Of a stretch of 44,270 nucleotides of DNA, positions 204 to 41,417 are shown piece by piece. Location: the IMG/VR virus record IMGVR_UViG_3300032087_004072, positions 1 through 44,270 of that record; one strand, written 5' to 3'. A program made the position numbers and the translations under genes. The stretch's first letter is position 1; every line of letters starts with the position of its first letter. The notes beneath the pieces are model-generated. The model made no database searches, was not told the origin of the DNA, and was given only the letters and a program-made list of their open reading frames with translations. Origin of the DNA: a virus.

Positions 204-232
204 ATTATAGCACAGGGTGCTAGGAAATTCAA
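204..232 (-). promoter_or_regulatory. sigma-70-type promoter upstream of uvsX
   Basis: Read on the minus strand, TTGAAT (232-227), a 17-base spacer and a perfect TATAAT (209-204) precede the uvsX start by about 25 bases. The spacer ends in TGC, giving an extended -10. The -35 box overlaps the stop codon of the upstream nuclease gene. This suggests host RNA polymerase can express uvsX separately. Confidence 0.7.
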
Positions 233-1260
233 GAAAGAATGTTCTTAATTTCTTCAACATCTGCCGGATTCAGCAGAGACTTATTGGAAGGCACCAAGGT
301 GCCTTTGAGTTTAATCGCGACGGTGAAACTGTGCGTTCCGTTCTCGCCCATATGAGGCTTAATACGGAAGCGAACATAAGCTTGCAAACCACTGTTAGAG
401 AAAAGCGGAACACCAAGGCGCTCAGCTGCTTCTTCATTCAAGGCATACAAACCTTTTCTGCCAATCTGAATATACTCATCACCCTTGTCGGCATAGTAAT
501 TGGCGATTGTTGCAAAATCAAAATCAACCTTATAATCTGTCTTGCCATCAAACCATTCAGATTGAAGTTGCCTCTTTAATTCACCTGTGGTCGGTGATGG
601 CTTGATGCCAACAACTTTATCATTCTTATCTTCGCGAAGGCGCTCGTCTCCAAGGGGCAACACGCAGTTTTCATTTAGATATGGCAATAACAGGTTATCG
701 AACAGGGGCTTGAATATGCCCTCGTTTTTAACGAACCCTGGGGTCCTGCGGGACTCCCAGCTTCGCAGAGTAGGATTGTATTGTGCCCTGAATTGTCCGA
801 AGTCTGCCGATAGAGCGGTCTTTACCTCAATATTGGTATCACCATTGGTGCCCGTTATTGTAAGGTCGCTTCCGTGACCAGCGCCAGCTGTTTTGGCGCC
901 TAAACCGACTGACCTTAGTAACTCAGCTAGGGATTCCTCAAAATCCATACCCGCTGTTGCGGCTCTGGTGCGACTCTTTGGCTTAAATACGATATATACT
1001 GACCCATCTTGGCGATCAACTAGTTGTAGTCTGCCAAGTGTGGAGCCATCGTCCTGATGGACATATCCAAGAGGTTGCAACATTCGAGCCATCTTGTCCA
1101 TAACATCGACGCGGTTATCGTCTAGGACTCTGATGGTGTTACCACCTCTAATAAGTTCATATTCATAACCCTCGTTCTCGATGGCTTGAATAGCAATTTT
1201 AAGGTTGTCACCCTTCTCTTCGGAGAGGAAGGTATTAAAGCTTTCTAAGAGAGTCTTCAT
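229..1260 (-). CDS. PD-(D/E)XK nuclease-like protein, possibly with a capsid-targeting-like N-terminus
   Basis: About 343 residues. The centre carries a PD-(D/E)XK-type pattern. In numbering from the first ATG these are E110/E111 (DFEESLAELL), D134 in GHGSDLTI and the E147-V-K149 triad element, as seen in restriction and resolvase-type nucleases. The C-terminal half is unassigned. The gene follows the Dam methylase with a TAATG stop/start overlap at 1264-1268. I prefer the second ATG (1260), because AAAGGA lies 8 bases before it but only 2 bases before the first. From that start the protein begins MKTLLESFNTFLSEEKG, which resembles the capsid-targeting peptide of T4 internal head proteins (MKTYQEFIAEA). 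A restriction-like partner of the methylase, a DNA repair enzyme and a packaged nuclease are all possible. The fold assignment is by motif only. Confidence 0.6.
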   Translation of the reverse strand: MKTLLESFNTFLSEEKGDNLKIAIQAIENEGYEYELIRGGNTIRVLDDNRVDVMDKMARMLQPLGYVHQDDGSTLGRLQLVDRQDGSVYIVFKPKSRTRAATAGMDFEESLAELLRSVGLGAKTAGAGHGSDLTITGTNGDTNIEVKTALSADFGQFRAQYNPTLRSWESRRTPGFVKNEGIFKPLFDNLLLPYLNENCVLPLGDERLREDKNDKVVGIKPSPTTGELKRQLQSEWFDGKTDYKVDFDFATIANYYADKGDEYIQIGRKGLYALNEEAAERLGVPLFSNSGLQAYVRFRIKPHMGENGTHSFTVAIKLKGTLVPSNKSLLNPADVEEIKNILS

Positions 1261-1265
1261 TTGCA

Positions 1266-2072
1266 TTATCCTTTAATTAGTATCTCTGAGGACTTACCCA
1301 TCTTTTTCCCTCCAACATTTTTCATTCCGTAAGCCCATTCGGCTTCGCGGATTTCATAATTATTATAGAGGTCTCGGATTTCCTCGCAGTCGTTATAGGA
1401 CAGGACCCAGCCAGAACGCTGGCTAAGGATGTCATAGAGGGCTCTGTGATCAAAGCCTGCGTGCGTGCTACCCTGGTCACCATATAGCTTGTCCCTGTCT
1501 TCCCCAAGCAGGTATGGCGGGTCGCAATATAGGAATGCGTCGGGGTGCTTGTTAATCGAGGTTTTAAAATCTTCACAATTAACAATTATGTTGGGCTCTC
1601 GAAAGTTTCGGACGCGCTCAATGGAACTGTCAGTGAAGCGCTTGTAAGATGCGCGCTTTGAGTAGCCTCCGGAGAACGTGGCTCCTGAAAAGCTACTGCG
1701 ATTGATTGCGTAGAACTTGGCTGCGTTTAGAAAAGAAAACTCTGTTGCATCTCGCAACTCATTGCGAAGTCGAATAAAGTCGCGCTTATGCAGCCCTCGG
1801 TCACAACCATAGTCAAAATGAAAAAGTCTATAAGCGTCGGCATCTGTGGCTAAGCGCTGCGGGTCTGTGAGCAGAGCATTCCAGAACCACACAAGCGGCT
1901 CGAAGATGTCGTAAGCATAGACCGGTGTCCCTCTCGCAGCAACAGCAAGCTCCACCGACCCACCCCCGAGGAACGGAGAGCAAAGCTCCGTTATGTCCTC
2001 GGGGATGAGTGGCAGAATGTGCTTTACAGCACGGGACTTACCACCCGGATACCGGAGTGGGGTCTTAGGCAT
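1266..2072 (-). CDS. dam: DNA adenine-N6 methyltransferase, Dam / D12 class
   Basis: 268 residues, the normal length for the Dam family. It transfers methyl from S-adenosylmethionine to adenine N6. The AdoMet-binding half is visible as RYPGGKSRAVKH (residues 7-18) and SPFLGGGSVEL (32-42, the FxGxG-type motif I). The catalytic motif IV is DPPY at 184-187. NRSSFSG (124-130) and the late SYND (225-228) also fit the family. It overlaps the gp32 stop by 8 bases and the downstream nuclease start by a TAATG junction, so the three are cotranscribed from the gp32 promoter. Phage Dam enzymes usually protect the phage DNA from host restriction. Pairing with a nuclease-like neighbour raises the alternative of a restriction-modification-like unit. 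Confidence 0.93.
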   Translation of the reverse strand: MPKTPLRYPGGKSRAVKHILPLIPEDITELCSPFLGGGSVELAVAARGTPVYAYDIFEPLVWFWNALLTDPQRLATDADAYRLFHFDYGCDRGLHKRDFIRLRNELRDATEFSFLNAAKFYAINRSSFSGATFSGGYSKRASYKRFTDSSIERVRNFREPNIIVNCEDFKTSINKHPDAFLYCDPPYLLGEDRDKLYGDQGSTHAGFDHRALYDILSQRSGWVLSYNDCEEIRDLYNNYEIREAEWAYGMKNVGGKKMGKSSEILIKG

Positions 2073-2820
2073 TCATTAGCTCGTTGAATGCGTTATCCAC
2101 CGAGTCAGCGTTGTTGTTTGAATACCGAGTAGTCTCCGTAGAGTTGCTCTCCGCATCAACACCGCCGGAAATGAATTCCTCCAGAAGCTGCTCGACCTCT
2201 TGCGGGGTCTTGCGCTCGAAAAGCTCCATAATGTCCTGAATAGAATTCAGATACATCGTCGTCGTATCCGTATCCTCAGAGAGGGGTGAAGAGCGACGAC
2301 GAGGTTGCAGCTTCGTCTGCGGGAACTGAGCACCAGCGGGCTTGCCGTAGCTAAGCACAAGGTCAGTCCCCTCATCAGTATCAGTGATATCACCGTAATC
2401 TGGGTTAAGAACTAGATTCAGCAGACTCTCATAGGCAGTCTTGCCATAACCCCACCAACGAACGCCATCGGTCTCCTCGCCACGGACAAGAACCGGGCTG
2501 AAAAAACGCTGTCGGACAAAGAGGCTCTTTGCGAGCTTCTTGGACGACTCGTCGTTAGTGTCGGCTCCCTCACGCCATAGATTGGACGCGAAGTCACAGA
2601 TGGGGCAGCTGTCCCCGAAGTTACGCTTAGGGCATAGAATGCCACCCTTGCTCACATTATAGTGGAAATAGACCTCCTTGAAGGGGTCGCCGTCTTCGGT
2701 AGGCACCACACGAATAGTCTGGTTGCCGTCGTTCGGACGCCAAAAAGCACTCCGAGAGCTATCTCCATTGTTCTGCACTGCCGCGAGCTTTGCTCGCATC
2801 TTATCTAGATTGATTCCCAT
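2065..2820 (-). CDS. 32: Single-stranded DNA-binding protein gp32
   Basis: 251 residues. gp32 binds ssDNA cooperatively at the replication fork and recruits other replication proteins. The N-terminal basic segment (NLDKMRAKLAAV) corresponds to the cooperativity region of T4-type gp32. The structural zinc site is visible as H53, C63, C72 and C75 (H-x9-C-x8-C-x2-C; T4 uses one His and three Cys in the same order). The C-terminal 60 residues are rich in Asp, Glu, Ser and Asn, as in the acidic protein-interaction tail of gp32. The protein is shorter than T4 gp32 (301 residues). It heads a transcription unit with a consensus sigma-70 promoter, followed by dam, the nuclease gene and uvsX. Confidence 0.92.
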   Translation of the reverse strand: MGINLDKMRAKLAAVQNNGDSSRSAFWRPNDGNQTIRVVPTEDGDPFKEVYFHYNVSKGGILCPKRNFGDSCPICDFASNLWREGADTNDESSKKLAKSLFVRQRFFSPVLVRGEETDGVRWWGYGKTAYESLLNLVLNPDYGDITDTDEGTDLVLSYGKPAGAQFPQTKLQPRRRSSPLSEDTDTTTMYLNSIQDIMELFERKTPQEVEQLLEEFISGGVDAESNSTETTRYSNNNADSVDNAFNELMNA

Positions 2821-2880: not shown

Positions 2881-2909
2881 ATTATATCAAAATGGGGGGT
2901 GGATGTCAA
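2881..2909 (-). promoter_or_regulatory. Consensus sigma-70 promoter for gp32 operon
   Basis: On the minus strand TTGACA (2909-2904), exactly 17 bases, then TATAAT (2886-2881): both hexamers and the spacing are perfect consensus. The spacer holds a C6 run. It starts in the gap between the tubulin-like gene and gp32, about 60 bases before the gp32 ATG. It should be recognised by unmodified host polymerase and would give strong expression. Confidence 0.88.
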
Positions 2910-2912
2910 GAA

Positions 2913-3743
2913 CTATTTTTCTTGAATGATTGAACTGTAAGCTACGCAATAAACGTAGTCCTGATCATATTGAGTGGGATATATCCCATACGTGGTCTTA
3001 GTATTTTTGGCGTTTTCTTTTACCTGTGCTATGACCTTTTTGTGGATATTCCCTTGCTCTCTCAACTTTTTCTCATTGATAGCGTAATAATACACTTTTT
3101 CCCGAACGTTGTCAAGACTAAAAAATAACTTTTCTTCTCCACTTTCAAAATCAACAAGACCATATGATATGATACGGCTTATCTCGTGTGGGGGAGAAAT
3201 ATTGTCCATAACACTGCTGCCGTGACGGAGGACATTGACCATATGCATAGTAGGGACAAGTAATTCATTTAGCTTGTCATAAAAGCCAATTATTGGTAGG
3301 TCTCCAAGGATTTCTTCAAGGCAGGCATTATCAGCCAAAATCACTGAATTCAAGATTCCAGAGCGCGCATACTCTTGGAACACGTTAAATGTCAGCCTCT
3401 GCTGCATTCTAGCAGTTTCACCCAAAAGCTCTGGGTCTGAGTGGATGTATAATACGTGGGTCTCGTGCTTTTTCAGCTGCTCTAAGATCCTCAGAGAAGC
3501 CCCAGATATAGCTCCACTGCCACCTACAACAAAAAGCACGCCCCCTTCTATATTCTTGAAAAAGGTTTTTAAGCTTCCAACCGATTCTTCGTATTTTTCT
3601 GGGTTGCTTAGATCTTTCAGCCCATATGTCCTGGGTGTTCTCTTTAAGCCTACATCCATCTTATAAACCTCATACTGAGGATACTTGGCGAACCTATCAG
3701 CGATTGCGCACCCAGCCTGCCCTAAACCAATTATAGTTTCCAT
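2913..3743 (-). CDS. Tubulin/FtsZ-superfamily GTPase-like protein
   Basis: 276 residues. The tubulin/FtsZ GTPase layout is visible in order. The first strand and T1 loop are METIIGLGQAGCAIADRF (1-18; compare GQCGNQIG of tubulin). The T4 glycine loop is VVGGSGAISGASLRILEQL (72-90; GGGTGTGAA in FtsZ). The PELLGETARMQQ segment (104-115) aligns with the EGKRRMxQ segment of FtsZ. DNACLEEIL (138-146) aligns with PNDRLLEI. The central helix H7 is near 155-175. The T7 region (GLVDFES, 195-201) lacks a clean NxDxxD/E, so polymer-dependent GTP hydrolysis is uncertain. The C-terminal domain is short. Phage tubulins (PhuZ, TubZ) form filaments that position phage or plasmid DNA. It overlaps the polymerase gene by 13 bases and precedes gp32, a replication context. 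The family call is good; the function is inferred. Confidence 0.75.
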   Translation of the reverse strand: METIIGLGQAGCAIADRFAKYPQYEVYKMDVGLKRTPRTYGLKDLSNPEKYEESVGSLKTFFKNIEGGVLFVVGGSGAISGASLRILEQLKKHETHVLYIHSDPELLGETARMQQRLTFNVFQEYARSGILNSVILADNACLEEILGDLPIIGFYDKLNELLVPTMHMVNVLRHGSSVMDNISPPHEISRIISYGLVDFESGEEKLFFSLDNVREKVYYYAINEKKLREQGNIHKKVIAQVKENAKNTKTTYGIYPTQYDQDYVYCVAYSSIIQEK

Positions 3744-4918
3744 TTTCTCATATCCCCATAGTTCTTACCGTATTTTACATTAACTCCGAACTTTCCTAAA
3801 ACAGTATTTGAGAAATGTTTAACCATTTGATTGATTAGCCTACACTCGCTATTAGTTACATCCAAAACGACCTCGTCATGGACGCAAAATGCAACAAATG
3901 ATTCCCTATCCTTCAAAAAACTGTCCAACGTAATCATTTGTCGAAGCACCACATCTGCACAAGTGCTCTGAATAAGATAACTCATAGCGTGATGCTCGTC
4001 GGCTGGTATGGTTCTGTTAAATGGATTGGTAATGGCGCCTTTATGCCAATATTTCTCCATTACAGCCCCTTTGTCGTAGGCGCGGTCGGTCAAATAATCC
4101 TGCGACTTAGGGTTGTAAAGCCACGCAAAGAATCTTTCCTTGACCTCGTCCCTCGTCCCAATGCCGCGATAGACGTTCTGCCTGTTCCATTCATGCACAT
4201 CAAACTCAGGCTGCTCCATATCAGATAGAGCCAGGAATGTGCGCAACTCTGCACCATTGAAGTCAAGAGAAACAAACCAGTCGTTCGTCGGGCTCACAAC
4301 CTTGCGAAACTTCTTGTCCATCGTCAGGATTGGAAAGCTGTTCTTCTTTGTGGTCAGCCGACCAGTCTTTGTTCCGAAAATGTTGTAGTCGCACGAAAGT
4401 GAAATCTGGCTTAACTTTTTTGCGAAGTCTCTTGTTCGCTTCTGATGCATTAGGTCTCGAAGAGCCCAGGGATCCACTTGGACCTTTCGGTGCTTGATGT
4501 CGTGCAAGACCTTTGTCAAAGCCACTAGAAAATCATAATTTTCGGGCTTGTGATAATTGTCGAAAACATACTCTGCAATTTTGTTTCGTGCCTCGCAATA
4601 CTCCCGCAGGAAGCGCTCATTTACAAGGTCAAAGAAGCAGTTTTCGGTAAGGTCTATTTTAGCCGCCGTAAAGGCACGTAGGAACGCCTTCATCCTTCCG
4701 TTAATGGTTTCCCACTCTTGGGCGAGATGACGCGGACAGGCGTCTTCTAGGGGCTTCTGGGCATATAGAAAAGCATACTCCATATCCTCCCTGTCACGAA
4801 GGAAAGCAGAATAATTCCAAGTGTGCGTTAAACCCTCGGGAATAGCGTCAAAATGCAACTCATTGTCACAATAGACGCCGACACACTCTTCTTTGTTATC
4901 AAGCGTTTGGAATAGCAT
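3731..4918 (-). CDS. polA: Family A DNA polymerase, polymerase domain only
   Basis: 395 residues. Pol I-family signatures are in order: TGRLTTKKNSFPIL (185-198), motif A SLDFNGAELR with D219 (217-226), motif B RDEVKERFFAWLYN (256-269; R-x3-K-x3-F-x3-Y, with Asn where Gly is usual), QSTCADVVLRQM (317-328) and motif C VHDEV with D348 (346-350). There is no visible 3'-5' exonuclease or 5' nuclease domain, and at under 400 residues there is no room for one. T4 uses a family B enzyme (gp43), so this is a replacement. Rhodothermus phage RM378 is a known far-T4 phage with a family A polymerase whose exonuclease is a separate gene. The start overlaps the stop of the upstream structural gene (TAATG), so it is coupled to a late gene. 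The Phe at motif B position 264 corresponds to the dNTP/ddNTP discrimination residue. Confidence 0.88.
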   Translation of the reverse strand: MLFQTLDNKEECVGVYCDNELHFDAIPEGLTHTWNYSAFLRDREDMEYAFLYAQKPLEDACPRHLAQEWETINGRMKAFLRAFTAAKIDLTENCFFDLVNERFLREYCEARNKIAEYVFDNYHKPENYDFLVALTKVLHDIKHRKVQVDPWALRDLMHQKRTRDFAKKLSQISLSCDYNIFGTKTGRLTTKKNSFPILTMDKKFRKVVSPTNDWFVSLDFNGAELRTFLALSDMEQPEFDVHEWNRQNVYRGIGTRDEVKERFFAWLYNPKSQDYLTDRAYDKGAVMEKYWHKGAITNPFNRTIPADEHHAMSYLIQSTCADVVLRQMITLDSFLKDRESFVAFCVHDEVVLDVTNSECRLINQMVKHFSNTVLGKFGVNVKYGKNYGDMRKWKL

Positions 4919-6138
4919 TAATATGTCGGCTTAGATTGGATACCTGTTTGTAGAAATTCAAATTTGCCAAGCTTTTTGGCGAATGAACCATCATAATTAT
5001 CAAACCCACGAAGCTCAACGTTAATCCTATTTAGAGAATCTGTGGTTGTCCCCACCCTCTCGATTGAGGCGACTTCTTTTTTCAGATTTACGATTTTACC
5101 TACGCTTCCGGGCTTTCGAAGTTCATTATACTTTATGTCTATATATTTGTCAAGCCAATAAGTCTGGTCATAGCCTTCAACCACTCTCTCTGGCGTTGTG
5201 AGACTTCGGCAAACAATATTGGTTTGCCCAGCATTATTCACTGTTCTAGTCCTGGGGTTGTTTATTACTAGGTCATTATAGAAAACCAAGGCGCGTTCTT
5301 GTAGGTCATCAACATCTAAAAGATAAGCCGGCTGGTAATAGAAGTTTAATATCTCGTCTTCTGAATTAATTCCATAAGCAGCTGCATAGCGCTGCATCTC
5401 TTGGCTCCCTATGTTTGCTATCAACTTCCAAGGGGCGTTCTTATCGATGAGAAATCCGTGCTTCGCAGCAGCTGTCTTATAGAAATTAAAATTCTTACTT
5501 CTAATGAACTCTTCCTTCTTAGAATCATCAGAGGCATCTATCTTGGCTATGTAAATTGCCAATCCAGAAACAAGTGGGTTGCAATAAGTGCTGGTGATAA
5601 ATGAAGATCTCGTGATGCAATCAACTTCGGACATTGTGTTCATAAATTCAAAGAAGAATGGCAAGAAAGAATCAAAATCTTTAATTTGCGCAAGACGATC
5701 ACGAGTCAGATATGAGTTATAGAAAAGGTTTCGTAGGCTCTCAATATATTGACGATATCTGGTATCTGGATCGAGATATGCCCTTTGTGCTGATATATCA
5801 TACAACACTGGATCTGTATTGTCAAGCTTTCCAGCAAATCCAGCTTTCTTGAAGTCTAGCACCATAGCCTCAAAAGCATCAACAACAAAATTGACTGCCC
5901 TCAAAGGAGGCGCGCCTTGCCCCACGGTCTGCGTTCTTAGATTGGCTAAGTTAGAATTGTTCAAGACTATTGGTATGTGGGATTTGGTAATCCTACCGTA
6001 CATTATTTGTTCTGAAAACTGAAAGTCTGTTATGGGTTGTGGGAACGCTTCTTTTGGGAAAGCATTGACGGAATAATTTAACCTTTGATAAAAAAGATCT
6101 TTTGTGTTTAGATTGTTTTTTCCATTAAAAACAGCCAT
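4918..6138 (-). CDS. Virion structural protein, likely baseplate-associated
   Basis: 406 residues, not recognised from a named family. There are no signal peptide, membrane segments or enzyme motifs. Composition is rich in Asn, Tyr, Phe and Asp, like phage baseplate and tail proteins. It lies 3 bases after the 1171-residue baseplate protein and its stop overlaps the polymerase start, so it closes the tail/baseplate block. Its middle (residues 130-260) is predicted mainly helical with aromatic residues. A baseplate wedge or hub accessory role is inferred from position only. Confidence 0.5.
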   Translation of the reverse strand: MAVFNGKNNLNTKDLFYQRLNYSVNAFPKEAFPQPITDFQFSEQIMYGRITKSHIPIVLNNSNLANLRTQTVGQGAPPLRAVNFVVDAFEAMVLDFKKAGFAGKLDNTDPVLYDISAQRAYLDPDTRYRQYIESLRNLFYNSYLTRDRLAQIKDFDSFLPFFFEFMNTMSEVDCITRSSFITSTYCNPLVSGLAIYIAKIDASDDSKKEEFIRSKNFNFYKTAAAKHGFLIDKNAPWKLIANIGSQEMQRYAAAYGINSEDEILNFYYQPAYLLDVDDLQERALVFYNDLVINNPRTRTVNNAGQTNIVCRSLTTPERVVEGYDQTYWLDKYIDIKYNELRKPGSVGKIVNLKKEVASIERVGTTTDSLNRINVELRGFDNYDGSFAKKLGKFEFLQTGIQSKPTY

Positions 6139-6141
6139 TTA

Positions 6142-9100
6142 CTACTCCTCTCTTACCAAAGAGACATTGTCGAATACGCTTTCATCGCACTCTTCTTGAT
6201 TTTCTGCGCCGGGCTGGGCGCCGGGACTTACTAGCCTTTGACCAGAAGATTCATATATCGCATTGATGGTTGTCTCGAACTTCCCTGATTCTATATATGA
6301 TCTGACTTTGAAAATTGTATGGTATCCACCGATACCTAGAATACTGGCTGCGCTTGACTGGACTGCTGGGTTTCCGATGCCTGGTGACAAACCACGAGGA
6401 TCAATGTATATCTTCATCCCAGGATAAAACATTGTGTTTCCTGCGCACTTAATCTCTACATCATATACATTGGATAATATTGCCAAACCTGTTAGCTGAT
6501 TCAAGAAGCTGTTTTCAAAACGAGCCTCGCGAAGACCAGCAAGATCTGTCTTATCAAACTTAATTGATTGTAGAATACCACGGTCTTTTGCTATACCAAA
6601 GTGATATATCCCTCTGGATCTATCGCCGGGATCAGATATTGGGTTGGTAATTGGGAACTCATTTCCTTTTAGTTCTTCCGTGGTGCCAGGTGCCATAGCA
6701 TAAAGAAGCATATAGTTTGTTGCCCTTTGCTGGCGTCTTGGGGGGATCAGCGGAAGCACCCCTGAATCTGATTGAAAGTCTTTATCGATATCTATTCTCG
6801 TCTCTGTTCCTTCGATAATTGGCTCAACTAGAACACCAGGCTCGGGGTCTCTTGGACCAGAGATGGCTATTTCCCCAGCGCGCCTCTTGGGTAATACATT
6901 TTTCGCCAAGTTTAGAGGGTCTTCCCCCTTGGCGGCGAAGAAGTTTGTTCTTAGTTGGAGATTCTCTCGCTCAACATTAGACAAGCCGTGGCACTGTGAG
7001 CGCATCATATTGCTGATGAGGTTGCTAGCCACGTCCCGCACAAAGTTTAATACCGGATAAATTGTTCGCTCTTGTGCGATTACAGATCCTAAAAACCAAT
7101 CAATATAGTAATTTACAGATATAGGAATATCTGCAAGGTTTATGTCATATAGTAAGATTGTTCTAGCATCGTCATCAGAGCCCACTGTTTCAGCGTATGA
7201 AATCGGTCCCAATAGAATTTGAAGATCTTTGTCTGTCTTGGCACGAGAGCTGATTGCTTCTTCGGTGGCTTCCGTGCTTGTATTGACCTCTTTGAGAGCC
7301 ATCTGTAATAGGTCGCCAAAATAGAAGAATTGAAGCGCGTGCTTATCTTGATCTGCATCATAGGATAAGTTTGCTAGCGCGGTTCTCAACTGCTCTTCGT
7401 TTTCTGGTATTTGTTGTCCGTCTAAGACACTAGGAGCCCTAGACGTCTCAGGAGGGCTTTCGAGTGTAGTGGATGTTTGAACATTTACTGGGTTGGAGGC
7501 GCCAAATACCCTCTCTAACAGAGGTTGAGAGAATTGTGTGCGCCCATCGTTAATATACCTATCGAGAACATCCGTATCTATCATAGTGTAGAAGATTCTG
7601 TTGTCGTCATACATTGCTTGGAGGATTCTATTCCAGTTTCTAAAATTTTCTCCTCTTACAATTTGTGTATATTCTTGTCTTAACTTAGATAGACGATCTG
7701 CGGAGCAGCCCTGCCTTCTTCTATCTTGAATCGTTTTCAGGGCGGTTAGTCTTCTATTTCTCGTCTCTTGGTCAGAAAGAATGTCAGAATCCGCATCCAG
7801 ATAAGAGGCTTCCTGATAGGCGATGTATTCGATTGACATATCGACATTACCCTGATCATTGATATTGATTGTATGGTCAATAGCGCTTAGGAACATAGTC
7901 ATCCTAGAAGCCTCAATAGCCTGCTCTATTTGTGGGCTTAGCACTCCGGTGCCAGTTGGGTCAGCCCAGCCAACTTCAATTTTAATCTTATAATAATCGG
8001 GATTCCAGACAAAGTTTAGATTTGCCCCTTCGGCTTCTGGGGTTAGACCAATATTGACTAGATCAACGTAGCGGAACGACTTTGACTCAATACGCCCATC
8101 GGAATATTGAGCATTAGCTGTCCTATCTTTAATAAGCTCGTCTAAGCTTTGAAAATATAATTTTAACTCTCCGAAGATATCTCTTCTAGCAGTAAATGGG
8201 TTTTCCCCTTCTAGCTTCCAGTCAAAGCTCTTTAAACCTACACCCTGCCCTCTGTCAAAGGCGCTATTAACCATTGAAGTTATCTCACCTTCTGTTACGG
8301 AGTCTTTAAATGGAATCTCTTGGTAATACTCTTCTCCCCTTGAACCATCGGCGTTTATCTCGCTGAAAACCTTGTATAGTCTGATTGTTGGGACAAGACC
8401 TGAAAATTCAGAGGGCGTGATCCTGTCGAATAAAGCCAGCTGAGGGTTATACACAAGTTTATTGACAATTGTGTCAGTTCTTCCGTGTAGCATATGAAAG
8501 TCTGGTCTCCCTGTTGTAGGGTGCGTATAGTCTGGATTTCTTGTCTGATTGATCTTGGCATAATCTCTTAGATAGTCAAGCAAGAAACACTGCTCGGCAA
8601 ATCTTCTTAGGCGCGCTTGCTCAGCAGCTGGTGGAGGCGGCGGAAGACCTGGCTGGTTTTCAATTGCCTCTTCAAGATCAGATAATACCTGCCTGCGACG
8701 ACTTTCAAAATCTTCAAGTATTATTCTTTGTTCGCGATTGCTAATTCTAGACGCAACAGGGAATATGTTCTCCTCTTGCCCTCTAATTTCAGCTAGCTGC
8801 TCAGAAGCTATTCCACCGAAAGATTCAACCAGGTACGTATGAATCCTAATCTTAGCAAATAATTCTGCAAAGTCTGCGAGTCGAGCCTGCGCTTGGGCAG
8901 CAGCAGCGGCGGCGGTCGGGGAGGCGCCCACTGAAAGCGCGAAATAATAAAACCATTTATAGTTTATTTTTGCTAAATTTAGAAGATCGAGTTGTTCGCC
9001 ATCGCGAGATCTAAAAAAGTTTTCACTAGAAAACAATCCGCTCCAATTAAATTCTAATCCAGCCAAGCGCAAGCTTGGATCAGCCTCGATAGTGGCGCCT

Positions 9101-9657
9101 TGGGCAGCAAGAAGGCGTGTTAATGCTCCCTGCTCCCCAGTTACAAGATTATCAACTGCTGACGGAGAGAGAATTGCCGACTCGGCTGCCCTGTAAGAAG
9201 ACCGCAGGGTATCACGAGCAATGGCTGGCAGCTGAGCTTCTAATGCTTGGCGTGCGGCGGGGGTTGTCGGTCTTGATTGAACAAGCTGTAATTCATAGTT
9301 GAAGATGGCTGCCTGTGTCGTATCGTCCGGTAGGTTGCGATATACAAATGAATTAACACTAGCATTTCGAACCCTCTCGGCTGAATTCGTATCAATTGAG
9401 CCATACCTAGCCTGAATAGCAGGAGAAGTATCGATGACTAGTCTAGGATATGCTGAATTATTGGTGTCTGTGACAAAGAACCAGTATTGAAACCCATCGC
9501 GGCGAGGTCTATCAAGCTCATATCGCTGCACCCTTGATGCATTAAGCTCTCTCACCAATAAGGCTATTTCAGCTTCGATACTTTCTTGGGTAAAGCCCCG
9601 GTCTGGGAATTGGCTTTCTATTTGCTGCTCAATTGTTTCCCTGATCGTGATTGCCAT
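6142..9657 (-). CDS. Large baseplate protein with hub-like C-terminal domain
   Basis: 1171 residues, the largest protein in the window. The first 60 residues are helical and charged. An Ala/Gln-rich helical region lies near 245-265 and a poly-proline stretch (PPPPP) near 340. The middle repeats mixed alpha/beta segments. The last 170 residues carry the pattern GNTMFYPGMKIYIDPRG then GGYHTIFKVRSYIESGKFETT, which is the layout of the late-control/gp27-type hub domain: a beta strand, a glycine-proline turn, then a strand reaching a threonine-rich end. It sits 1 base after the LysM/gp53-like gene. A role as a long baseplate hub or wedge protein fits sequence and position, but no single T4 gene matches over its length. 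Confidence 0.6.
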   Translation of the reverse strand: MAITIRETIEQQIESQFPDRGFTQESIEAEIALLVRELNASRVQRYELDRPRRDGFQYWFFVTDTNNSAYPRLVIDTSPAIQARYGSIDTNSAERVRNASVNSFVYRNLPDDTTQAAIFNYELQLVQSRPTTPAARQALEAQLPAIARDTLRSSYRAAESAILSPSAVDNLVTGEQGALTRLLAAQGATIEADPSLRLAGLEFNWSGLFSSENFFRSRDGEQLDLLNLAKINYKWFYYFALSVGASPTAAAAAAQAQARLADFAELFAKIRIHTYLVESFGGIASEQLAEIRGQEENIFPVASRISNREQRIILEDFESRRRQVLSDLEEAIENQPGLPPPPPAAEQARLRRFAEQCFLLDYLRDYAKINQTRNPDYTHPTTGRPDFHMLHGRTDTIVNKLVYNPQLALFDRITPSEFSGLVPTIRLYKVFSEINADGSRGEEYYQEIPFKDSVTEGEITSMVNSAFDRGQGVGLKSFDWKLEGENPFTARRDIFGELKLYFQSLDELIKDRTANAQYSDGRIESKSFRYVDLVNIGLTPEAEGANLNFVWNPDYYKIKIEVGWADPTGTGVLSPQIEQAIEASRMTMFLSAIDHTININDQGNVDMSIEYIAYQEASYLDADSDILSDQETRNRRLTALKTIQDRRRQGCSADRLSKLRQEYTQIVRGENFRNWNRILQAMYDDNRIFYTMIDTDVLDRYINDGRTQFSQPLLERVFGASNPVNVQTSTTLESPPETSRAPSVLDGQQIPENEEQLRTALANLSYDADQDKHALQFFYFGDLLQMALKEVNTSTEATEEAISSRAKTDKDLQILLGPISYAETVGSDDDARTILLYDINLADIPISVNYYIDWFLGSVIAQERTIYPVLNFVRDVASNLISNMMRSQCHGLSNVERENLQLRTNFFAAKGEDPLNLAKNVLPKRRAGEIAISGPRDPEPGVLVEPIIEGTETRIDIDKDFQSDSGVLPLIPPRRQQRATNYMLLYAMAPGTTEELKGNEFPITNPISDPGDRSRGIYHFGIAKDRGILQSIKFDKTDLAGLREARFENSFLNQLTGLAILSNVYDVEIKCAGNTMFYPGMKIYIDPRGLSPGIGNPAVQSSAASILGIGGYHTIFKVRSYIESGKFETTINAIYESSGQRLVSPGAQPGAENQEECDESVFDNVSLVREE

Positions 9658-38252: not shown

Positions 38253-41200
38253 TTAGTGATTTATGAAAGCGTATCCATCTCTTTTCTCGATCACTATCTG
38301 CGAATCTACGCAGTCCTTTAATGAGTCAAGGTGTGAGATCAATAAGATAGTCTTAAATTGAGCCTTGATCAAATCTAGAATTCGCACAAATCCTTCCATA
38401 TTCTCCTCGTCCAAAGCAGTCCCAGGCTCATCCAGGATGAAGATGTCACCCTTTGGCAGACTGGAAACAGAGAGAAGCGCTAGGCGAATTGCCATCGAGG
38501 CGATAGTCTTCTCGGCTCCGGAGCCCATTTCAAGTGGTCGTGGTTCAAAGCGAGGATGCTTAATGAAGATGTTAAGACGCTTGTCTGCGCTTTCAAGATA
38601 AACCTCAAAATTTACAATATTTGTAAGGACCTTGGAGATTTCATCATTGATCGCAGGGAGCTTTTTCTTAATGATATCATATGCAATGCCATTGCTGTGC
38701 ATACAGCGCATATAAAGATCGTAAGCAGAGTATTGATTTCTTAGGTCCTCCAACTCTTGCTTCTGGTCTCGCAGGCTTTCAACCTGCTGTTCCAGTGAGC
38801 CGTGCTTTACATATAGTTCTTTAAGTTCATTATCGCAATTTTCCAGCGTGCTATTGAAAGAAAAAATATTCTTTTTGTGGTCTCGCTTCTGCCTGTTGAG
38901 TTCTGAAAGCTGTTCAATGGCTTCCTTGTTCTCGTTATACGTATCAATTTCTTTCAGAAGTCGCTGAATATTATGCTCTGCTGTTAGCTTGGTAGTCTTA
39001 TTTCGCTCAATGCCGAGTTCGCACTTTGTTAGTGTGCGTTCAACTTCCCGCTTCTTATCAACAAGTTGCTCATATTGACTGTGCTTCTTATTGATTTCTG
39101 ACTCATTAAGGGCTGAAATATCAGCCTCAATCTTGCTACTCTCGTTATGTAGCGTAGCAAGCTTGGCAGCGTTCTCAGCAAACCTTTCCTTGGCTGTGTG
39201 GGCATCCTTAACAAACTTGTTTTCGTTACAATACTGACAGTCGGGATCATATTCGTGCGTCTCCAGCATCTTCATCTTCTTCTGGTTGTTTGCCTGCTCG
39301 CGATCAAGAAGCTTGATGATATTGTTTAGTTGGGACATTTCCTCCTGCTTGGTTGCAAGAAGTTCCTTCTTGATAAGAATATCATCGATATCAATATCTG
39401 ATAGGAAAGCGGCGATGTTCGTTAGCAGCTTTTCTTTCTCGTGGTGCTCTTGTTGAAGGGTCCGAAGATTCTCATCTGCCTTGTAAAGGTCTAGCTCGCT
39501 TGCGCTTAGTTCTTCCTGTACAGCATCATAGTCGATCATCTGCGTTGGAATAGAAGAAATCTGACTTTCTACTTCACTCAGAAGAGCCTCTACTGCTTTA
39601 AGTTCTTCTCTTGTGACCTCGCAAGTTGCCTTGTGATCATCGATTACTTCGCCGTTCTCTCGCAGCTCCTTAGAGGCAGCCGTGATGAGATTCACAAAAT
39701 CTTTGCCTTCCAGTAGTTTGAGGGCACCCTTGATACTAGAACTATCGTCCTTAGCCATCTTGAACTTCTTCTCGAAGATTTCTAGGTCAAGGAACTTGGC
39801 TAGGATTTCTTTGCGCTTGGTTGAGCCCTCACCAATGAACGACAGAGAGCCAAGCTGAGAAGCCATTGACGTTAGGAGGAAGTCCTCCATCGTGCCAAAG
39901 ACCTTTCGAATCTTCTTGTCAGTGTCGTTTCTGGTAAGTCCGTTTAGCTCCTCCTTCTCTCCGAGAAGGTTGGTCTTGAAGAAATCCACATCGGTCTTTG
40001 CTTCGGTCGTCTCCTGCCCTTTAAGGCGCTTGATATACTTTTCCGATGTACGGTGTATCTCGTAGGTCTCGTTGCCGATAGATGCCTTTACGACGCTTCT
40101 ACACCCCTCTTTGTTTTGGTTAATAATGTTAAGGTTCTTGCGCTCGTTCTTGGACGTGCTGTTGAACATAGTGTAGAGCAGTCCATCGATTGTGGAAGAC
40201 TTGCCTGAATAGTTCTTGCCGAAGATACCGACGATGCCGTTGGTCTTGCTGAAATCAATCTTATTGTCCTCGCCATAGTTGAACAGGTTATCCCATTCAA
40301 GGCTTTCTAGCTTCCAATCTACGTTGCGAGACACATCTTCGTTTTCCTGTGCTAGCGTGCTATACTTACGGTTTAGCTCAAAGACGCGGTCAAGCTCTTC
40401 TTCGCTAACCTCAAAATCTTTGAGATATTCCGTGATAAGCTTCTCTTGAACACTAGGGTCTCGGAGATTTTCCTTTTTGAGACCATCAGCCAAATTCTCC
40501 ACAGAGCCACGCTGACCAGCTGCACGATTAAGAAACGACACACTCTCAGGCTTGAAGCGATGCTTTACAATCTCAATTGCACGTCGTAGGCGGTCTGCTG
40601 GTAGGCTGTTGTTTGCTACAAGCCTTAGTCGGGCACCCTCCTGCACTTGGACGTTCTTTGGCAGGCGCCCCTTGGGTGTAAGCTCAATCGTGATAAACGG
40701 CTTGGGGTTGAGAAGCTTGTGGTGGGTGACAGTAAAGTCGTCTTTACTATTTATTTCCCAAATCAAGAATCCTTTATCATTGGTCTCGCCGTGGTTTTGC
40801 TGGACAATAGAGCCACAGTAGCGGACACGACCGTCCTCGTCAAGAATCTGGTTGGTTTTGTGAATGTCCCCAAGCATTGCGAAGTCGTGACCGGCAAAGA
40901 TTGAGACATCGTGGTCGCCATATTCCATAACCCAGCCGGCATCAGTGCTGACACCAGCCACACAACCGTGGTAGAACGCGATATTGATGCGGTCTTCGCT
41001 GCTGGGCTTGACCCAGTTGTCCTCATCGAATACTGAAAGGACGTTGAATGCCAAATCATCGGCAACAATAGTCTCACCAGCGTCCGCTAGAAGATGAATA
41101 TTGGGATTATCCAGCGCATTTACGATGGGTGTGATGGCATTTTGGCGACTTTTGTTGCGCAAATTGCCGTCGTGATTGCCCAAAATGATGTAAAGTGGGG

Positions 41201-41417
41201 CGATTTCTGCCAAATTTGTGAAGAATTCAGAGCATAATTGCACGAATTCGGGGCTAATTTGGGTCTTTGTGTGGGCAATATCGCCGCCAATATAGATATA
41301 ATCTACCTCGTTTTTACGCAAAATAGCGTATAACTGGTTGAAAACGTGTCTGTATTCATAGTGATACTTCAGATTTTTGATATGGACGTCCGCCAGGTGT
41401 GCAATCTTATAAGTCAT
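38253..41417 (-). CDS. 47/46: Fused Mre11/SbcD-Rad50/SbcC nuclease-ATPase (gp47-gp46 fusion)
   Basis: 1054 residues in one frame. Residues 1-340 are an Mre11/SbcD phosphoesterase: HLADVH (7-12), GGD (44-46), GNHD (80-83), YHG with His150, and GHD (176-178) with GDIH (183-186). Residues 370-1054 are Rad50/SbcC: Walker A GKNYSGKSS (400-408), a long coiled coil with a zinc hook CQYC (Cys727 and Cys730), signature MGSGAEKT (about 960-970) and Walker B IFILDEP (about 990-1000) with LISHLDSL after it. T4 encodes these as separate gp47 (339) and gp46 (560). The complex resects DNA ends to supply ssDNA for UvsX. It lies 15 bases after the primase gene region and before the lysis-like trio. Confidence 0.95.
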   Translation of the reverse strand: MTYKIAHLADVHIKNLKYHYEYRHVFNQLYAILRKNEVDYIYIGGDIAHTKTQISPEFVQLCSEFFTNLAEIAPLYIILGNHDGNLRNKSRQNAITPIVNALDNPNIHLLADAGETIVADDLAFNVLSVFDEDNWVKPSSEDRINIAFYHGCVAGVSTDAGWVMEYGDHDVSIFAGHDFAMLGDIHKTNQILDEDGRVRYCGSIVQQNHGETNDKGFLIWEINSKDDFTVTHHKLLNPKPFITIELTPKGRLPKNVQVQEGARLRLVANNSLPADRLRRAIEIVKHRFKPESVSFLNRAAGQRGSVENLADGLKKENLRDPSVQEKLITEYLKDFEVSEEELDRVFELNRKYSTLAQENEDVSRNVDWKLESLEWDNLFNYGEDNKIDFSKTNGIVGIFGKNYSGKSSTIDGLLYTMFNSTSKNERKNLNIINQNKEGCRSVVKASIGNETYEIHRTSEKYIKRLKGQETTEAKTDVDFFKTNLLGEKEELNGLTRNDTDKKIRKVFGTMEDFLLTSMASQLGSLSFIGEGSTKRKEILAKFLDLEIFEKKFKMAKDDSSSIKGALKLLEGKDFVNLITAASKELRENGEVIDDHKATCEVTREELKAVEALLSEVESQISSIPTQMIDYDAVQEELSASELDLYKADENLRTLQQEHHEKEKLLTNIAAFLSDIDIDDILIKKELLATKQEEMSQLNNIIKLLDREQANNQKKMKMLETHEYDPDCQYCNENKFVKDAHTAKERFAENAAKLATLHNESSKIEADISALNESEINKKHSQYEQLVDKKREVERTLTKCELGIERNKTTKLTAEHNIQRLLKEIDTYNENKEAIEQLSELNRQKRDHKKNIFSFNSTLENCDNELKELYVKHGSLEQQVESLRDQKQELEDLRNQYSAYDLYMRCMHSNGIAYDIIKKKLPAINDEISKVLTNIVNFEVYLESADKRLNIFIKHPRFEPRPLEMGSGAEKTIASMAIRLALLSVSSLPKGDIFILDEPGTALDEENMEGFVRILDLIKAQFKTILLISHLDSLKDCVDSQIVIEKRDGYAFINH

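Follow-up and report, generated by a model that had tools for sequence, protein, structure and literature searches.

A shortened tubulin/FtsZ-fold protein encoded between the DNA polymerase and gp32 genes of uncultured Far-T4 phages

Introduction

The known phage tubulins are cytoskeletal proteins, found mainly in jumbo phages and in phage-plasmids. In the protofilaments of tubulin, of FtsZ and of TubZ (PhuZ) from phage phiKZ, loop T7, the base of helix H8 and strand S9 fill the interface between subunits (PMC3678025). A diverged group, FtsZl1, was described by Makarova and Koonin (2010; PMC2875224); its S6–T7 region departs from known structures and its ability to form filaments is doubtful.

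Here we describe a tubulin-fold protein, TUB, encoded by an open frame with an ATG start in the window, by which we mean the entire 44,270-base virus record; the window is probably a fragment. TUB resembles FtsZ and CetZ over the whole length of the fold, and its T1 loop, T4 loop, T6 asparagine and H7 asparagine align with those of FtsZ. It differs from both in being phage-encoded within a replication operon, in lacking T7 and H8 (about 40 residues) as well as the C-terminal tail, and in having a shortened T3 region and a degenerate T4 loop. With PhuZ and the phage TubZ proteins it shares a phage-encoded tubulin fold, but the T7 and H8 elements that lie at the subunit interface of the phiKZ protein are both missing. 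By description TUB is also similar to FtsZl1 in its divergence. It differs from FtsZl1 in domains and in context: coiled-coil and C-terminal domains have been added in FtsZl1, whose setting is membrane remodelling, whereas TUB has no extra domains and is found in the context of DNA replication. The closest viral structural match, A0A6J5RW92 ('FtsZ Cell division GTPase' of an uncultured Caudovirales phage), has 452 residues compared with the 276 of TUB and is 14% identical to it.

Gene layout

The coordinates of the locus are collected in Table 1. The start of TUB overlaps the stop of the polymerase gene by 13 nt, and gp32 follows downstream after a gap of 92 nt; both neighbours score above their Pfam cut-offs. 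No 3'–5' exonuclease domain was seen in the polymerase. A 1171-residue ORF lies together with the 406-residue ORF on the 5' side of the polymerase gene (4918–9657, minus strand), a place which both keep in nearly all loci. A family search gave no match for the 406-residue ORF, which diverges at about twice the rate of the polymerase.

Table 1. Features of the TUB locus (residue numbers refer to TUB)
Feature	Position	Strand	Evidence or remark
Putative promoter-like site of the sigma-70 type (12/12 consensus), some 200 nt ahead of the polymerase start	5125..5153	-	
Conserved 406-residue ORF, upstream of the polymerase	4918..6138	-	Position kept in nearly all loci
Family-A DNA polymerase, 395 residues, polymerase part only	3731..4918	-	Pfam DNA_pol_A 9e-16
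Tubulin/FtsZ-fold protein TUB, 276 residues	2913..3743	-	AlphaFold2 pLDDT 93.5; Foldseek, VIA-align; hhalign against FtsZ with controls
T1 nucleotide loop, residues 6–15, G-L-G-x-A-G-C-x-I-A (GLGQAGC = 6–12)	3699..3728	-	Aligned with FtsZ GVGGGGGNAV
T4 loop, residues 74–84, G-G-S-G-A-I-S-G-A-S-L, degenerate tubulin signature	3492..3524	-	Aligned with FtsZ GGGTGTGAA
Invariant motif V-x-Q-E-Y-x-R-S, residues 121–128, end of helix H5	3360..3383	-	99–100% conserved; helix 109–127 in the model
N139, T6 position, equivalent to the guanine-contact Asn of FtsZ 'IPND'	3327..3329	-	hhalign pairing; 94% conserved
N159, start of helix H7, equivalent to E. coli FtsZ N186 (AAND)	3267..3269	-	hhalign pairing; 95% conserved
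Short H7–S7 linker, residues 172–191, replacing loop T7 and helix H8	3171..3230	-	No helix in the model
Putative promoter-like site of the sigma-70 type (12/12 consensus), in the gap from TUB to gp32	2881..2909	-	
gp32 single-strand DNA-binding protein	2065..2820	-	Pfam gp32 8.6e-17

Judged by its T4-type portal, terminase, prohead protease and major capsid protein, the window comes from a phage of the Far-T4 group. Its major capsid protein is closest to those of an uncultured 484-kb phage, Flavobacterium phage immuto, Microcystis phage Mel-JY01 and Rhodothermus phage RM378. We note two further features of the window. A single ORF of 1054 residues (38253–41417, minus strand) joins a calcineurin-like nuclease domain to an SMC-like ATPase and corresponds to a fused gp47/gp46 (SbcD/SbcC), which are two separate genes in T4. 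A D12-class adenine methyltransferase (1266–2072, minus strand) adjoins a 345-residue ORF (229–1266, minus strand) which has no Pfam match and of which the sequence GSDLTITGTNGDTNIEVKTAL resembles the core of a PD-(D/E)xK nuclease; the two are possibly a restriction-modification-like pair.

Predicted fold

The AlphaFold2 model of TUB, for which an 18-sequence alignment served as input, has a pTM of 0.91 and consists of a Rossmann-like GTPase domain, a central helix H7 and a second domain with strands S7–S10, with the elements in the tubulin order. The top 50 Foldseek matches in the PDB are all FtsZ, TubZ, CetZ or tubulin structures, with E values of about 1e-12 and TM scores of about 0.7. Superposition with VIA-align gave the highest Z score with CetZ (25.0, over 254 residues at 2.9 Å), followed by Bacillus TubZ (23.9), FtsZ (22.9) and tubulin (about 21.6). 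These matches cover residues 1–276 and thus both domains; the background Z of the method is usually 7–8. Among the viral models (BFVD) A0A6J5RW92 is the best match, with a TMq of 0.80, and PhuZ is also found among the matches. On the strength of the model, the fold of TUB is firmly that of the tubulin/FtsZ superfamily, the N-terminal nucleotide domain being complete and the C-terminal one reduced.

Comparison of the TUB family with a 31-sequence FtsZ family using hhalign gave a score of 41.0 (E value of 8e-5, probability of 61%) over residues 3–168. For 60 column-shuffled controls the mean score was 16.1 (standard deviation 2.9) and the maximum 23.9; the reversed profile scored 18.3, and none of six other families of proteins encoded at the TUB loci exceeded 20. 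The family alignment is needed for this result, as hhalign comparisons of TUB with a single FtsZ or a single phiKZ PhuZ sequence were not significant. With HMMER, neither single proteins nor profiles of TUB reached the cut-off in Pfam, NCBIfam, PHROGs or the PDB. Pfam Tubulin reached 14.2 bits, under its cut-off of 33, the best family member matched TIGR00065 ftsZ with an E value of 0.00028 and the PHROG search gave nothing above chance level. These null results are a limit of sensitivity and not a lack of relation, and it is because plain HMM searches fall under the cut-off that the family has remained unannotated.

Weak Pfam matches to TrkA_N and other Rossmann families stand level with that to Tubulin, and weak matches to alcohol dehydrogenase were found among the PDB sequences, as might be expected if TUB were another Rossmann-type protein, such as an NAD-binding dehydrogenase domain, that is merely tubulin-like. 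However, all of the top structural matches belong to the tubulin superfamily, extend over residues 1–276 and lie far above the background, and the profile–profile score with FtsZ exceeds that of every control. A non-tubulin Rossmann identity is nearly excluded.

The initial annotation had proposed that a T4-type phage encodes a tubulin/FtsZ-like protein next to its polymerase and gp32, with T1 and T4 loops in the FtsZ order. Structure prediction, which returned the tubulin fold with no other Rossmann fold on top, and the controlled profile–profile comparison bear out the former, and hhalign places the two loops as proposed. A relation to the tubulin/FtsZ families that profile searches could detect was also anticipated; it is recovered between profiles, far above the controls, but profile-to-sequence searches stay under the Pfam cut-off.

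Nucleotide pocket

Conservation figures refer to 81 non-redundant members of the TUB family. In the T1 loop G6, G8 and G11 are 96–100% conserved, and I14 belongs to the conserved pocket residues, which as a set range from 86 to 100%. In the T4 loop the values are 90% for G75, 86% for G77 and 100% for L84. The tubulin signature [SAG]GGTG[SA]G is represented here by G-S-G-A-I-S-G, which fits at four of the seven positions and deviates at three. The asparagines at T6 and H7 contact guanine in FtsZ and tubulin, and N139 and N159 occupy the aligned positions in TUB.

The VxQEYxRS motif is, as far as the sequences indicate, new and specific to the TUB family. Helix H5 would end away from the nucleotide in the tubulin fold, and the motif may therefore be a site for a partner.

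The conserved pocket bears on the suggestion that TUB re-uses the fold as a nucleotide-independent regulator, for example in RNA- or protein-binding feedback on the polymerase operon of the RegA kind. TUB directly follows the polymerase gene, as regA follows gene 43 in T4, and the loss of catalysis would suit such a role. Set against this, the T1 glycines and guanine-contact asparagines are 94–100% conserved, and the median net charge of −5 and pI of 5.7 give no sign of nucleic-acid binding; we consider a regulator of this kind decidedly unlikely. DNA binding by TUB, as judged from charge, was likewise found to be unsupported.

Missing T7 and H8

In 81 of 81 members exactly 20 residues separate the end of H7 from S7, and the NxDxxD/E motif is present in none of these linkers. 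From the H7 asparagine to S7 there are 32 residues in TUB and 72 in E. coli FtsZ, a difference of about 40. Given the short linker without the motif, this deficit and the lack of a helix in the model, loop T7 and helix H8 appear to be gone; for H8 the family-wide absence is based on alignment length and one structure model. A C-terminal tail was not found, with only 4–20 residues following the last strand, S10. On our best reading of the sequences, TUB would be unable to form canonical GTP-hydrolysing filaments.

The missing T7 motif and the short C-terminal part had both been pointed out, correctly, in the initial annotation, and the absence of the motif extends to all 81 members. The designation 'GTPase', on the other hand, is not supported, since the catalytic T7/H8 module is missing family-wide even though the residues at the guanine positions are kept. 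Of the two activities put forward, a non-polymerising protein fits these observations, while a block of host FtsZ finds no evidence and fits less well because TUB is strictly linked to the replication operon.

TUB might nevertheless assemble through a new interface into a cytomotive filament of the PhuZ or TubZ type, with phage DNA or virions as the cargo that it positions or segregates. It shares its fold with these proteins, other phages use tubulins in this way (PMC3678025) and FtsZl1, for which a new mechanism of filament formation is possible, provides a precedent (PMC2875224). The interface elements T7 and H8 (PMC3678025) are absent from TUB, however, as is the C-terminal tail, and we regard a filament as unlikely.

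Family and distribution

A profile-derived motif scan found the TUB family in at least 592 IMG/VR stretches; scans of IMG/VR with a first and a second query gave 23 and 18 close relatives, respectively. The homologues are 27–84% identical and their lengths cluster at 272–298 residues. Compared with the eight closest relatives (79–84% identical), pN/pS is 0.14–0.18, and it is 0.24 compared with L009. These low values, at synonymous sites near saturation, indicate strong purifying selection on TUB and, together with the range of homologues, show that the ORF is not a chance one. The gene is interrupted by a stop in L014/L025 (6558) and in L058 (8654), and in L081 the polymerase and gp32 genes are split between frames.

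No TUB match was found in 50,697 phage records or in a plasmid search, and a profile search found none in six deposited relatives, immuto, Mel-JY01 and RM378 among them. The GTDB genomes contain one match only, in the WOR-3 MAG CP070664 (CP070664.1, bin77; L139), where a Far-T4 polymerase, TUB, gp32 and recA lie between runs of N in the MAG chromosome (L139 5514–10873). We considered a prophage at this site and, because of these runs of N within the scaffold, rejected it as a scaffolding artefact. The initial view that TUB is unexpected in a T4-type genome needs correction: one uncultured clade of Far-T4 phages has it as a characteristic gene, while the six deposited relatives gave no match. 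No paper in the open-licence PubMed Central literature joins tubulin with Far-T4, and the main Far-T4 paper mentions neither tubulin nor FtsZ.

TUB-bearing contigs reach 168–188 kb (their completeness is not given), which suggests phages of T4 size and not jumbo phages; the PhuZ proteins among the matches listed come from phages of about 210 kb and more. A second tubulin was seen in none of five such genomes, a weak result as the same profile also misses most TUB members.

Gene order and rate of change

The order orf1171, orf406, polymerase, TUB, gp32 on one strand is kept in nearly all loci. TUB is preceded by the polymerase in 110 of the 118 loci studied and followed by gp32 in 110, and it has both neighbours in 102; some of the loci come from the same contigs and are not independent. 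Most of the loci that lack one or both neighbours end at a contig edge. In L022/L036 gp32 lies about 3 kb from TUB, and L023/L039 is a real exception, with no gp32 detected over some 6 kb downstream. Two loci were examined beyond gp32, and in both it is followed by RecA, a 5'–3' exonuclease and a DnaB-type helicase. The pairwise distances of TUB correlate with those of the polymerase (0.74), and the rate ratio is 1.09; TUB changes at the rate of the polymerase.

The promoter-like site between TUB and gp32 has 12 of 12 consensus positions in the close relatives L001–L005 and L007 as well. For the two promoter-like sites, roughly half to two thirds of the loci have a best score of 10–12 of 12, compared with a mean best of 8.3–8.6 after shuffling. 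The recurrence of these sites suggests that TUB is expressed with the early replication genes.

Among 80 loci picked through the immuto polymerase TUB is found in none, and 69 have the order polymerase, 151-residue gene, ssb. This conserved gene of the immuto-type Far-T4 phages (L137 1346–1801; L172–L251) occupies the slot between polymerase and ssb and is unrelated to TUB. It was considered as a split tubulin and rejected, as it is not homologous to TUB.

The fixed position also bears on a possible role as an inhibitor of host division, in which TUB, as a tubulin-fold decoy, would cap FtsZ through its nucleotide face and, having no T7 face, block extension. An FtsZ fold with a single competent face is what such a cap would be expected to look like, and other phage proteins (T7 Gp0.4, P1 Icd and lambda Kil) target FtsZ. 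Those inhibitors are small, however, and to our knowledge the tubulin fold is not known in any of them. Typical host-takeover genes move around, unlike TUB, which is locked in the replication operon and has a polymerase-like rate. The VxQEYxRS motif at the end of H5 is, moreover, probably away from the nucleotide face. Such a cap seems to us quite improbable.

Proposed role

In our view, held with a confidence that falls somewhat short of even, TUB is a new, shortened protein of the tubulin/FtsZ superfamily that acts as an accessory in phage replication. The fold, the kept pocket residues, the loss of T7 and H8, the position in the operon and the polymerase-like rate all speak for this reading, and the fixed place of the gene, with the polymerase on one side and gp32 on the other, suggests that a tubulin has been adapted to DNA replication. 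More tentatively, TUB may have abandoned GTPase-driven polymerisation and now serve the viral replisome as a nucleotide-gated subunit or organiser that forms no filaments, in a role common to a large uncultured Far-T4 clade. On the main reading, TUB would be made early, from host sigma-70 promoters and together with its replisome partners, and would bind GTP (or GDP) as a state switch. Lacking T7 and H8, it would not stimulate its neighbour in a filament to hydrolyse GTP, and canonical dynamic protofilaments would accordingly not be expected. The VxQEYxRS face would contact a partner in the replisome, either the polymerase, gp32 or a member of the RecA/exonuclease/DnaB group that follows them, and TUB would organise or gate replication.

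Several points weigh against a replication accessory. Gene order alone is no proof of a role in replication, the T4 loop fails to fit three of the seven signature positions and the L023/L039 locus has no detectable gp32 nearby. In addition, the unrelated small gene in the same slot of the immuto sister clade means that the slot may just hold a replaceable early gene.

If a replication accessory is the correct reading, TUB would represent an abundant and environmentally common tubulin family that is tied to DNA replication and not to filaments, and that does without a part thought to be required for the activity of the tubulin superfamily. It would provide a natural test of which tubulin elements serve nucleotide binding and which serve assembly, in a conserved gene that annotation by sequence has left blank in many uncultured T4-type phages.
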